Assembly (NCBI GenBank): GCA_900498245.1
Contig: LS998015.1
Span: forward strand, 1,111,543-1,175,542
Source: Candidatus Zixiibacteriota bacterium
Lineage (GTDB): Bacteria > Zixibacteria > MSB-5A5 > GN15 > PGXB01
Direction: 5' to 3'
Length of the DNA: 64,000 nt
The position numbers and the translations under genes are program-made. Below the pieces are notes generated by a model. The model was not told the DNA's origin. It saw only the letters and a list, made by a program, of their open reading frames with translations, and made no database searches. Of the stretch, positions 7,700-12,683 are shown piece after piece (the first letter of the stretch is position 1; each line of letters starts with the position of its first letter).

Positions 7700-8890
7700 G
7701 TGAAGCGATTGAAAGTTCTGTTTATCACACATAATTATATCAGGTTTAAGGGGGATTTTGCGGGCGTATTTCTGCACCTATTGGCGCTGAAACTTCGGGA
7801 AGAGGGGATCGAAGTGGTGGTGGTCGCTCCCCATGACTCGGGGACGGAGGAATTTGAGGAAATTGACGGTGTCAGGATATATCGTTTCAGGTATGCCGTC
7901 GACGATAAAGAGACATTTGCCTATCGGGGAGACATGCACCGGCAGGTCATTCGCAATCCCTTTCGGATATTTGGACTGATAAAATTTCTGAAGGCCGAAT
8001 ATCGTCTCGCCTGCAAGGTTATTGAAAAGGAGGGTATCGGAACCATTTCAGTGCAATGGGTGATTCCGAATGGAGTGCCGGCGCACTTCTTGAAGAGGAA
8101 GTATAAGGAGAAGTTAACTCTTTTTATAAGTTCCCACGGGACGGACATCAGACTTCTGACCGGCACACCGCTCGTTTTCACTCTTTTCCGACCGCTAATC
8201 AGAGAGTCGGCGGGCTGGACGGTGGTATCGAATTACCTGAAGAATCTGCTGGTCAAAAAAGATCGCGGCCTGAGAGATAAATTGCACGTTATACCGCTTC
8301 CAAATGACGAAGCCCTGTTTTTTCCCGAAGAGAAAACAGTGAAAGAGCCATACTTGATTGTGGCGGTGTCACGATTGACGGTTCAAAAGCGGCTCAATTA
8401 CCTTCTGGAAGCAATAAGGCGTTTGGCTGTAGAGTTTCCGGAGATAAAACTCGAAATTTACGGAGCCGGGCCGGAGAAGATTCCCTTGGAGGAGCTTATA
8501 AGGGAATTGGGCCTAATTGGAAGAGCAAAAATAATCAATCCTCTGCCTCAGGAAGGATTAAGGACGGTCTATAACCGGGCCGCGGCCGTTGTTTTAAACT
8601 CGATTGGTGAAGGTTTCGGGCTGGCGTTGACGGAAGCGATGCTCTGCCGGACTGCCGTAATAGGAACGGCATCGGGAGGGATCACCGATATAATTGATGA
8701 CGGCACCACGGGTCTTCTGGTTCCGCCGGATGATTCGGGCAGATTAGGGGATGCGATTCGCCGGCTACTGCTCGAAAGGGATTTCCGCGACAAATTGGCG
8801 CAGGCGGGGTATGAGAAGGCGCTGAAGTGTTTTTCCGCGAAAGCCTCGGCGCAAGAGTACGCCCTATTATTTGAAGGGAAGAAGGATTGA
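7700..8890 (+). CDS. Glycosyltransferase family 4
   Basis: A 396-residue GT-B enzyme. The N-terminal domain begins LKVLFITHNY and has the SSHGTDIRLL loop. The C-terminal domain has VAVSRLTVQKRLNYLLEAI and the EGFGLALTE (E-x7-E) donor-site motif followed by GTASGGITDII and GLLVPPDD, standard for retaining GT4 transferases using nucleotide sugars. The acceptor is unknown; surface polysaccharide or glycolipid synthesis is likely. The start is GTG 7700; no ATG is nearby and the upstream site is weak. It ends one base before the convergent gatE gene, with no room for a terminator between them. Confidence 0.9.
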   Translation: MKRLKVLFITHNYIRFKGDFAGVFLHLLALKLREEGIEVVVVAPHDSGTEEFEEIDGVRIYRFRYAVDDKETFAYRGDMHRQVIRNPFRIFGLIKFLKAEYRLACKVIEKEGIGTISVQWVIPNGVPAHFLKRKYKEKLTLFISSHGTDIRLLTGTPLVFTLFRPLIRESAGWTVVSNYLKNLLVKKDRGLRDKLHVIPLPNDEALFFPEEKTVKEPYLIVAVSRLTVQKRLNYLLEAIRRLAVEFPEIKLEIYGAGPEKIPLEELIRELGLIGRAKIINPLPQEGLRTVYNRAAAVVLNSIGEGFGLALTEAMLCRTAVIGTASGGITDIIDDGTTGLLVPPDDSGRLGDAIRRLLLERDFRDKLAQAGYEKALKCFSAKASAQEYALLFEGKKD

Positions 8891-8891
8891 A

Positions 8892-10805
8892 TTACTTTTC
8901 GCTACCCAGGCGTTCGGAAATCCTGGCCAGGACCTCCGGGCTATGATGAGGAAAGCGGTCGATTAAACGGCCGGTGAGGTAGCGGCGGAATTTCCCGCAC
9001 TTATCATTCGAAACGACCCCGTCAAATTTGCTTTTAATTTCCTCCCAGGAGCGGTCGAGGAGTTTGAGATCGAATGATTCCGGGGTAGTCCGGTTTGGCG
9101 CATCACCGTGAGCCAGCATGATTAAAGCGGCTTTGAGCTGTCGGTGGGGCCATTTTCCCGACAGGGCCGTTTGGAGCAATTGATATAGTTTCCCGCGATC
9201 GGCTTTGGCCAGATCGTATCCACTGCGCCTTAAATCGATCAGCATGCCGGAAAGAATATAGGCGGCCCTTTTGATCGGAATATTGTTCTCCGCGGCCAGT
9301 TGATCGAGAATATCAGCATACGGGGATAACGACAGGTTCCGCACCAATTCGGAGGACAATCCCAAAGAAGTCCAGCGCTTCTGTTTTTCCCAAAGCGGTT
9401 CGGCCAGGCGGCGGCGATTTTCTTCGACCCGGCTATCAGTAATTTTTATAGGGGGATGATCGGTATCGGGATACATCCGGTCGGGGCCAGGGAGAATTCG
9501 TTCGAAATCGGTGGTACCGTTTTTCATATCCTGCCGGGTTTCGTTTATGACCCCTTTGGCCAGTTCAAGAATGCGGATTTTAATTTCATTCAGGGCCGTG
9601 ACGACGTCGGCCGACGGGCCGCAGACCAGAACGATATCATCGCCCGGATTTTCGGTCCAGCGGCTGCGGATTTTTTCCCATACCGTCTCCGGAATATCAT
9701 AAAGATGCCGGTGAGAATAGAAAAATAGATTGGGAACGCTATCGATACAGGCAATAACCCGGACCCGGCCGCCGAGTTCAGAGGCGAAGTCCCAGCCGGG
9801 CTGAAGAGGATGCAAATTGAAATCCGCGAGACCGGCAAGATGCATTCCGACGACTTTAAGGGGGCGATCGCTTTCAAGACGCCGTCCAATAATATTGCCA
9901 CTGCCGCTGAATAGCGAAGTGAAATTCTCCTCCCCAAAATCGATTTTCGGATCGGAACCGAAGCGGGCGACAAATCTGTCTCTCAATTCCAAAAGCCTTT
10001 TTTGGCGGACGGCCTCAATTGCTGTCAGTGGTTTTATATTACCGACTTTGAAAACGCCTTTTATTTCTACCCGGGTGCTTCCGGTGATGGAGACATTGAC
10101 ATCCTGGCGGACAGTTCCGATGCCGCGGCGGACGAGGCCGGTAATTTTCATGGAATTTCCCAGGAGGCGGCAAACATCGGCGGCCTCGACCGGATTTTTC
10201 ATATCGGAAGCAGTTATGATTTCGACTAACGGGGTGGAAAGACGATCCGTGGCAAAGACGATGCGGTGGCCAATATCGGAAACCTCGCGGCAGGCTTCTT
10301 CCTCCAAATTTACCTGAGTGATGGTGATACGTCGATTTTTATAAGGAATCCAGCCATCGACCCCGATAATCATGGTTCGCTGGAAACCGGTCGGAATGGA
10401 ACCGTCGAGATACTGTTTTCTTATGACGTGGATCTCATCGACAATACGGCAATTGAATAAAAGGGCGATACGGATGGCATAATCAATGGCCTGCTGGTTG
10501 ACCAGAAAGGGAGGGGTATCGTCCATCTCGTAGGTGCAGGTGCGGTCGCGGTAGAGACGATAGATGACCTCTTTTTTGGTCTTGAATTCCATCAGCGCGG
10601 TCCCGTCATATTCGCCCAATTCCGATAGAGTGGGGCGCATATGACGCAGGATCTCGGCGTCATATTTCCGGCCGGTCAGGCCGACGGGGCAGTGACAAAA
10701 GAGTTTTTTCTCGGTGGCGAGTTGCTGATGAATTTCAAGCCCGCAGATGAAGCCCAGCGATTCAAAGCGGGCCTTGTCATTTATGTCGAGGTTCGCGATG
10801 TCCAT
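8892..10805 (-). CDS. gatE: Archaeal-type Glu-tRNA(Gln) amidotransferase subunit E
   Basis: A 637-residue member of the GatB/GatE family. It begins with the cradle domain (CGLEIHQQLATEKKLFC, CHCP metal motif). In the middle, about residues 290-420, is an inserted GAD-like domain, which GatE has and bacterial GatB lacks. Next comes LPGPDRMYPDTDHPP, typical of GatE, and then the tail domain that contacts tRNA. In archaea GatE works with the asparaginase-like GatD to convert Glu-tRNA(Gln) to Gln-tRNA(Gln): GatE activates and transamidates while GatD supplies ammonia. No gatD, gatA or gatC is adjacent. Length matches archaeal GatE (about 620-640). The start ATG 10805 has no strong ribosome binding site. 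Sure of the family; function as a working amidotransferase in this organism is inferred. Confidence 0.88.
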   Translation of the reverse strand: MDIANLDINDKARFESLGFICGLEIHQQLATEKKLFCHCPVGLTGRKYDAEILRHMRPTLSELGEYDGTALMEFKTKKEVIYRLYRDRTCTYEMDDTPPFLVNQQAIDYAIRIALLFNCRIVDEIHVIRKQYLDGSIPTGFQRTMIIGVDGWIPYKNRRITITQVNLEEEACREVSDIGHRIVFATDRLSTPLVEIITASDMKNPVEAADVCRLLGNSMKITGLVRRGIGTVRQDVNVSITGSTRVEIKGVFKVGNIKPLTAIEAVRQKRLLELRDRFVARFGSDPKIDFGEENFTSLFSGSGNIIGRRLESDRPLKVVGMHLAGLADFNLHPLQPGWDFASELGGRVRVIACIDSVPNLFFYSHRHLYDIPETVWEKIRSRWTENPGDDIVLVCGPSADVVTALNEIKIRILELAKGVINETRQDMKNGTTDFERILPGPDRMYPDTDHPPIKITDSRVEENRRRLAEPLWEKQKRWTSLGLSSELVRNLSLSPYADILDQLAAENNIPIKRAAYILSGMLIDLRRSGYDLAKADRGKLYQLLQTALSGKWPHRQLKAALIMLAHGDAPNRTTPESFDLKLLDRSWEEIKSKFDGVVSNDKCGKFRRYLTGRLIDRFPHHSPEVLARISERLGSEK

Positions 10806-10946: not shown

Positions 10947-10973
10947 ATGCCGTTTGAAAAGGAGGAGGGCGCG

Positions 10974-11687
10974 ATGAGTTCCATAGAGTCAATAATCGAT
11001 CGTCAGTTGCGGCGCTGGGAATTAGAGAAGAAAATTCGCGCGCTGGAAACGGAAGAAGGGCGTAAGGCGCGCCTGAAACCGATTGTAACGGTCAGCCGCC
11101 TCAAAGGGAGCGGCGGGACGGTCATAGCGAGCCGACTCGCGGAGAAATTGCACTACCAGTTATTACACCGGGAAGTTATCGATGAAATCTGCAGTTCTTC
11201 GGGATACCGCCGGCAGGTGATCGAGTCGCTCGACGACAGGATTCGCTCGCGAATCGAACTCTGGTTCGAGGGAATTTTCAAGGGAAGTTATATCGACGCC
11301 TCTGATTATCTCAAACAGTTGTATAAAGTCATCATGTCGATCGCCGAACACGGGGGAGTGGTCGTTGTTGGCAGGGGCGCCAATTTTATTCTCCCTCGGG
11401 AACAGGTTTTCAGTTTGAGAGTAACGGCCTCGAAAGAACGGCGAATCGAGAATCTGATGCATTATCTCAGTCTCACTCACGATCAGGCCGAGAAAGAAAT
11501 CAGGGAGACGGATAAGGCGCGAGCGGAGTTTATTCACAGCCATTTTAAGAGAAACATCGATGATCCCCTGGCTTACGATTTGACGATCGATACGACATTT
11601 ATCGAGGTGGAGGCGGCGGTGAATCTGGCGGAGGCGGCGATTTGGGCCAAATGGAAAAAGCTAGGGATAGTCGGGCCGGGGCACTGA
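10974..11687 (+). CDS. Cytidylate-kinase-like protein
   Basis: A 237-residue P-loop-type protein of the cytidylate kinase-like family (the one often found beside CBS- or response-related genes rather than cmk itself). It shows IVTVSRLKGSGGTVIASRLAE (a modified P-loop: no classical GKS), then LHREVIDEI, a central VVVVGRGANFILP strand-loop and the arginine-rich lid KERRIENLMHYL. It may phosphorylate a nucleotide or nucleotide-like ligand, but the substrate is not known. The start at 10974 is set by GGAGGAGG five bases upstream. An earlier in-frame ATG (10947) lies in the presumed promoter. It is divergent from gatE. Confidence 0.82.
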   Translation: MSSIESIIDRQLRRWELEKKIRALETEEGRKARLKPIVTVSRLKGSGGTVIASRLAEKLHYQLLHREVIDEICSSSGYRRQVIESLDDRIRSRIELWFEGIFKGSYIDASDYLKQLYKVIMSIAEHGGVVVVGRGANFILPREQVFSLRVTASKERRIENLMHYLSLTHDQAEKEIRETDKARAEFIHSHFKRNIDDPLAYDLTIDTTFIEVEAAVNLAEAAIWAKWKKLGIVGPGH

Positions 11688-12317: not shown

Positions 12318-12683
12318 ATGGCTACAAAGAAGGCCAAGAAGCCGGCAAAGAAGAAAGTGGCCAAGAAATCGGCGAAGAAGCCGGTTAAGAAGGCCGCGAA
12401 GGCGAAGAAGCCGGCCAAGAAGAAAGTCGCTCGGAAGCCGAATCCGGCCTTCATGAAACCGATGCAGCCGGATGATATGCTCGGCGCCGTAGTCGGCATG
12501 AAAGCGATGCCGCGCACCGAGATCACGAAGAAGATTTGGGATTACATCAAGAAGAACAAACTCCAGGATTCTGTGAACCGGAGAATGATCAACGCCGATG
12601 ACAATCTCAAAGCGGTATTCGGCGGCAAGAAGCAGGTCAGCATGTTCGAGATGACGAAACTCATCGCGAAGCATATGAAATAA
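12318..12683 (+). CDS. SWIB/MDM2-domain protein with lysine-rich tail
   Basis: A 121-residue protein in two parts. Residues 1-44 are lysine/alanine/proline repeats (KKAKKPAKKK, KKSAKKPVKK) like a histone H1 tail. Residues ~47-121 are a SWIB domain: an MQPDDMLGAVVG start, TEITKKIWDYIKKNKLQD, INADDNLKAVFGGKK and EMTKLIAKHM, the usual SWIB helices. In eukaryotes SWIB is part of SWI/SNF chromatin remodelling complexes; in bacteria such as Chlamydiae it occurs alone or fused to topoisomerase. Here a DNA-compaction or transcription role is a reasonable guess. GGAGAAACGG precedes ATG 12318. A strong terminator follows at 12701. Confidence 0.88.
   Translation: MATKKAKKPAKKKVAKKSAKKPVKKAAKAKKPAKKKVARKPNPAFMKPMQPDDMLGAVVGMKAMPRTEITKKIWDYIKKNKLQDSVNRRMINADDNLKAVFGGKKQVSMFEMTKLIAKHMK

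Follow-up and report, generated by a model that had tools for sequence, protein, structure and literature searches.

A passage of a 2022 review (PMC9499178) states that the GatDE amidotransferase is today confined to archaea, and the same source gives GlnRS as absent from all archaea. An open reading frame resembling GatE in the chromosome of a Candidatus Zixiibacteriota bacterium raises the question of whether it encodes a genuine GatE, whether a GatD accompanies it and what such an enzyme would do in this cell. The window, the whole stretch of 64,000 nucleotides analysed here (G000:C1:1111543-1175542), belongs to a single-contig genome of 3.51 Mb that is 98.9% complete.

Identification of the gatE gene and its domains

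The gene, its parts and its two flanking genes have the following positions in the window.

7700-8890 (+), GT4 glycosyltransferase gene, flanking gatE
8892-10805 (-), gatE, 637 aa, uninterrupted ORF with ATG at 10805 and stop at 8892-8894
9954-10805 (-), first part of the GatB/GatE catalytic cradle (residues 1-284); the PF02934 match covers residues 20-460
9555-9953 (-), GAD insertion domain (residues 285-417), from the match of the model to the AspRS insertion domain
9426-9554 (-), end of the catalytic cradle (residues 418-460), bearing LPGPDRMYPDTD
8895-9425 (-), diverged helical domain and tail (residues 461-637); the tail resembles YqeY in fold alone
10947-11687 (+), cytidylate-kinase-like gene, flanking gatE

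In searches with NCBIfam profiles, the product scored 405.5 bits against TIGR00134 (gatE_arch), above the cut-off of 319.55, and 454.6 bits against NF003107 (GatE), 1.4 below the cut-off of 456. Its score against TIGR00133 (gatB) was 117.9 bits, far under the cut-off of 314.8, and by these scores the protein does not fall within bacterial GatB. No frameshift or stop codon was found in the 637-codon reading frame. The cradle motifs GLEIHQQ, LEEEA, RQDVNVS and RVEIKGV stand at residues 22, 167, 233 and 245, respectively, and LPGPDRMYP, the motif pointed out in an earlier sequence-only reading of this DNA, occupies residues 438-446. The core columns of this GatE and its relatives were invariant (62 sequences).

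An AlphaFold model, for which the window GatE and 61 relatives served as input, had a mean pLDDT of 88.7 and a pTM of 0.85. The whole model aligned with GatE 2d6f_D (Z 37.5, 512 residues), and its residues 285-417 matched the bacterial AspRS insertion domain (1c0a; Z 13.1, 121 residues). The Pfam GAD model gave no match in the window GatE; nevertheless, the structural match indicates that the GAD-like insertion, also proposed in the earlier reading, is real. The Pfam model GatB_Yqey was unmatched in the window GatE and matched in the relative L007. The tail region is helical, and the model aligns by fold with GatB 3ip4_B through residue 637. By sequence, the solved structures nearest to it are those of GatE from Methanothermobacter (2d6f) and Pyrococcus abyssi (1zq1). 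Profile scores, the modelled GAD insertion and the closest solved structures together confirm the ORF as a genuine GatE and not a GatB, as had been read from the letters. Since TIGR00134 is an NCBIfam equivalog, NCBI automatic annotation would probably already label this protein and its bacterial relatives GatE.

GatD and other Gln- and Asn-tRNA genes of the same genome

As the sequence-only reading had noted, no gatD, gatA or gatC lies alongside gatE, and the remaining gat genes of the genome fall outside the window. The label "orphan" given to this GatE does not hold, with a full GatD of 461 aa encoded on the same chromosome (G000:C1:2944248-2945633, 1.8 Mb from gatE) and GatE nearly always occurring with GatD in the phylum. 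The GatD scored 526.7 bits against TIGR02153, passing the equivalog cut-off, contains the GatD_N domain, retains TGGTIAS, HGTDTM and RKMH, and can be aligned with P. abyssi GatD along 409 residues. Going by gene names read by eye, mfd and a gene for a sensor kinase flank gatD.

The search of the genome for gatD, gatA and glnS found all three. GatA and GatB are both encoded, and no gatC was evident beside gatA/gatB. GlnRS (776 bits) is full length, AsnRS scored 630 bits, and GluRS is present in one copy. With GlnRS encoded, the suggestion of a second route to Gln-tRNA is tenable. At 12318-12683 (+), the window of this bacterium also encodes a stand-alone SWIB/MDM2 domain protein whose N-terminus is rich in Lys and Ala.

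GatDE in Zixibacteria

The genome is assigned to Candidatus Zixiibacteriota by exact matches of GatE that link genomes of the phylum to the named records L149 and L186. Among 132 genomes of the phylum, 69 were above the GatE cut-off and 78 above the GatD cut-off. Co-occurrence was counted in the 57 genomes at least 95% complete, with contig-edge fragments counted by hand. GatD, GatE and GlnRS occurred together in 38 of the 57, GatD and GatE without GlnRS in 1, GlnRS only in 7, GatD and GlnRS in 2, and none of the three in 9. Both GatDE subunits were present in 39/57, GatD alone in 2 and GatE alone in none. GatE with a full GatD is therefore common in this phylum; a published description of such a pair, which the sequence-only reading had also envisaged, did not come to light. 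The openly readable literature mentioning GatDE yielded no report of a bacterial GatDE.

The association between GatDE and GlnRS gave a Fisher p of 8e-7 when phylogeny was ignored. When phylogeny was allowed for, with independent pairs drawn on a GluRS tree of genomes chosen by state, the median p was 0.5 with only 5 independent pairs, and the association is not secured.

AsnRS was found in 76 of 78 good genomes, and GatB was unmatched in several good genomes carrying GatDE (e.g., G083, G116, and G039). GatDE without a GlnRS match was found in G119, G120, and G127. G120 (family f17) also gave no GatB match, and the GatE of G127 (family f19; L035) groups with Acidobacteriota. Elsewhere in family f19 (L266:3772-9640, G130:C39), gatE-gatD has glnS immediately upstream, encoded on the other strand.

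GatE in other phyla and its gene neighbourhood

A scan of GTDB contigs gave at least 572 relatives. The best 80 of these, nearly all metagenome-assembled, include Planctomycetota, Ignavibacteriota, Bacteroidota, Chlorobiota, Aminicenantes, Cloacimonadota, Fermentibacteria, Krumholzibacteriota, Myxococcota, Acidobacteriota, Gemmatimonadota, Coatesbacteria, Calditrichota, KSB1, WOR-3, Caldisericota and Eisenbacteria, together with three Thermoplasmatota. In 60 of the 80 named loci (the best 80 of at least 572), gatD adjoins gatE, usually directly downstream; the split pair in the window's genome is unlike this usual arrangement. No conserved neighbour beyond gatD was evident in the 80 named loci. 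The other neighbour families that recurred mapped back to gatE and gatD, in most cases on the opposite strand. The GlnRS cut-off was passed by 37 of 50 named GatDE genomes, and 10 of the 50, the complete chromosome of L126 among them, gave no GlnRS match. No relative was confirmed in viral contigs.

In a Thermoplasmatales genome (G176), a bacterial-type gatE lies on a contig with PriL, the archaeal primase large subunit (L262, G176:C116). A second contig of this genome (L261, G176:C81), matching in tetranucleotide make-up (correlation 0.955), encodes a full bacterial GlnRS. Two Thermoplasmatota (G201:C102 and C30; G210:C58 and C12) each gave two GatE matches of unequal strength, perhaps an archaeal copy and a bacterial-type one.

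Phylogeny of GatE and GatD

In a quick IQ-TREE analysis (143 rows, unrooted, without a GatB outgroup), a branch with a length of 0.99 and an SH-aLRT of 100 separated all sampled bacterial GatE, together with the three Thermoplasmatota named above among the best 80, from 2 archaeal reference GatE and 30 further GatE of Thermoplasmatota. The bacterial set forms a single branch of 111 rows from over a dozen phyla, and the window GatE does not group with archaeal GatE in this unrooted tree. The description "archaeal-type" should be used with caution: the bacterial GatE branch stands apart from archaeal GatE. The GatD tree also separated bacterial from archaeal GatD (support 100), a split to be read guardedly given the long branches of the archaeal rows.

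Zixibacterial GatE were scattered in the tree, with 10 label changes, 8 of them forced by starred branches. These several positions indicate that the gene moved between phyla. Of the two origins first considered, horizontal acquisition and deep inheritance, transfer among bacteria is borne out; the bacterial branch itself may stem from a transfer out of archaea or from deep inheritance.

Selection, tRNA-Gln and GluRS

The window GatE and the copy in the same genus are 79% identical, with a dN/dS of about 0.11; the value for GatD was lower, and dS was near saturation. Both subunits are under purifying selection. Compared with other Zixibacterial families, identity was 53-67% in the GatE core and only 11-28% in the helical and tail domains. 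The tail and GAD regions, the expected tRNA readers, are the least conserved parts of GatE, and the tail has diverged most.

Both tRNA-Gln genes (TTG and CTG) have U1-A72, G2-C71, G3-C70, and G73, the set that a passage of PMC9976931 gives as the acceptor-stem Gln identity set for bacteria. Archaeal GatDE, according to a section of PMC9499178, reads A1:U72 and the D-loop of the tRNA. The A1-U72 pair is absent from both tRNA-Gln genes of the genome, so that this GatDE would read another acceptor end, ignore the acceptor or act elsewhere. The tRNA-Glu(CTC) at L113:990-1064 (-) has an apparent G1-U72 and A73, and tRNA-Glu(TTC) has G1-C72 (read by eye).

The GluRS of the genome bears the Arg of discriminating GluRS, and so do all relatives. 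As a marker of GluRS specificity, this Arg358-type residue is uninformative, being Arg in 29 of 29 aligned Zixibacterial GluRS, GlnRS-less genomes included. In GlnRS-less Zixibacteria with one GluRS, tRNA-Gln must be glutamylated, that is, the GluRS there is non-discriminating. These GluRS nest inside GlnRS- and GatDE-containing lineages and have the identical residue at the discriminating position.

Proposed function and alternatives

Both subunits are encoded intact, co-occur and evolve under purifying selection in company with GlnRS, and the GatE fold is retained. From these observations we infer complex formation, catalysis, the substrate and a clean-up role. The reading that we favour, with somewhat more confidence than doubt, is an active GatDE of the bacterial branch that amidates Glu-tRNA(Gln) as a parallel or clean-up route beside GlnRS. 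In this two-subunit enzyme the gatE product would act as kinase/amidotransferase, and the distantly encoded GatD would supply it with ammonia by hydrolysing glutamine or asparagine. GatE with ATP would activate the glutamate of Glu-tRNA(Gln) and then amidate it to Gln-tRNA(Gln). For clean-up, GatDE would convert the Glu-tRNA(Gln) that a GluRS of imperfect discrimination produces, with GlnRS also in the cell. The main limits are that activity is deduced from sequence and fold, that the association with GlnRS is not secured once phylogeny is considered, that the analysis leans on metagenome-assembled genomes and that fragments were counted by hand.

The invariant core columns and the purifying selection on both subunits suggest that the enzyme is active. 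Amidation of Glu-tRNA(Gln) beside GlnRS is favoured by lineages that retain GatDE without a GlnRS match, and by the position of their necessarily non-discriminating GluRS inside lineages with both GatDE and GlnRS. Several findings count against it: next to a full-length GlnRS, GatDE should be dispensable; tRNA-Gln has U1-A72 instead of A1:U72; the tail and GAD regions are least conserved; and GluRS has the discriminating-type Arg, though this is common to all relatives.

The same divergence could mean that the substrate has changed, the ATP-dependent amidation core being kept while the parts that read tRNA, now diverged, serve a different aminoacyl-tRNA or a target outside translation. We consider this unlikely, though it deserves weight: the core is far better conserved than the helical and tail domains, tRNA-Gln is without the archaeal A1-U72 pair, and GlnRS, AsnRS and GatA/GatB leave no obvious tRNA unserved. 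However, the tail could equally have diverged by simple relaxation or by co-evolving with the bacterial tRNA-Gln, no gene that recurs nearby suggests another pathway, and GatDE lineages without a GlnRS match exist. It is more doubtful still that the pair lacks a distinct role beside GlnRS, being a redundant relic or often transferred. The patchy distribution, the many transfers, the split of gatE and gatD in this genome and the presence of GlnRS would fit, but purifying selection acts on both genes, GatD and GatE are retained together though unlinked, the window gatE has no frameshift or stop, and no relative was confirmed in viral contigs. A stray or mis-binned archaeal gene, which the archaeal-only description of GatDE in the cited part of PMC9499178 might suggest, is already refuted by the single contig of 3.5 Mb, the presence of a gene of 79% identity in a second genome of the genus and the single branch of 111 bacterial rows.

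The larger finding is the bacterial GatDE branch, beyond the single gene in the window; within the openly readable literature, this large branch appears undescribed and was found in no paper. Whether it is a widespread branch working with GlnRS in one cell, giving the first bacteria with direct and indirect Gln-tRNA routes, and in which recognition switched from A1-U72 to U1-A72 or tRNA-Gln was left for another substrate, is as a joint claim evenly balanced in our judgement. Models of Gln-tRNA evolution rest on GatDE being archaeal, on GlnRS being absent from archaea and on one Gln route per bacterium. A bacterial GatDE in over a dozen phyla, usually beside GlnRS, questions these three statements, as does the presence of both a bacterial-type GatE and a GlnRS in at least one genome of the Thermoplasmatota. 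Whether GatDE and GlnRS are incompatible, as has been proposed, becomes directly testable.

Comparison with known systems

Archaeal GatDE (Methanothermobacter 2d6f and P. abyssi 1zq1) and the system described here have in common the two subunits, the GAD insertion, the core motifs and GatD_N with the asparaginase fold, and the window GatE is 41-42% identical to archaeal GatE over the core. Unlike archaeal GatDE, the bacterial system has a separate, long GatE branch and a diverged tail, with gatE and gatD unlinked here, GlnRS in the same cell and U1-A72, not A1-U72, in tRNA-Gln. GatB of bacterial GatCAB shares with the window GatE the catalytic cradle and the helical/tail fold. GatB is without the GAD insertion and has GatA as its glutaminase. 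The window GatE differs from it in having this insertion and in scoring far under the TIGR00133 cut-off, and the genome has its own GatA and GatB. A GatCAB tRNA amidotransferase kept beside GlnRS/AsnRS is described for Deinococcus, Thermus, and Bdellovibrio in a section of PMC4206432. In those bacteria GatCAB serves tRNA-Asn, whereas here an amidotransferase of the Gln-specific GatDE type stands beside GlnRS.
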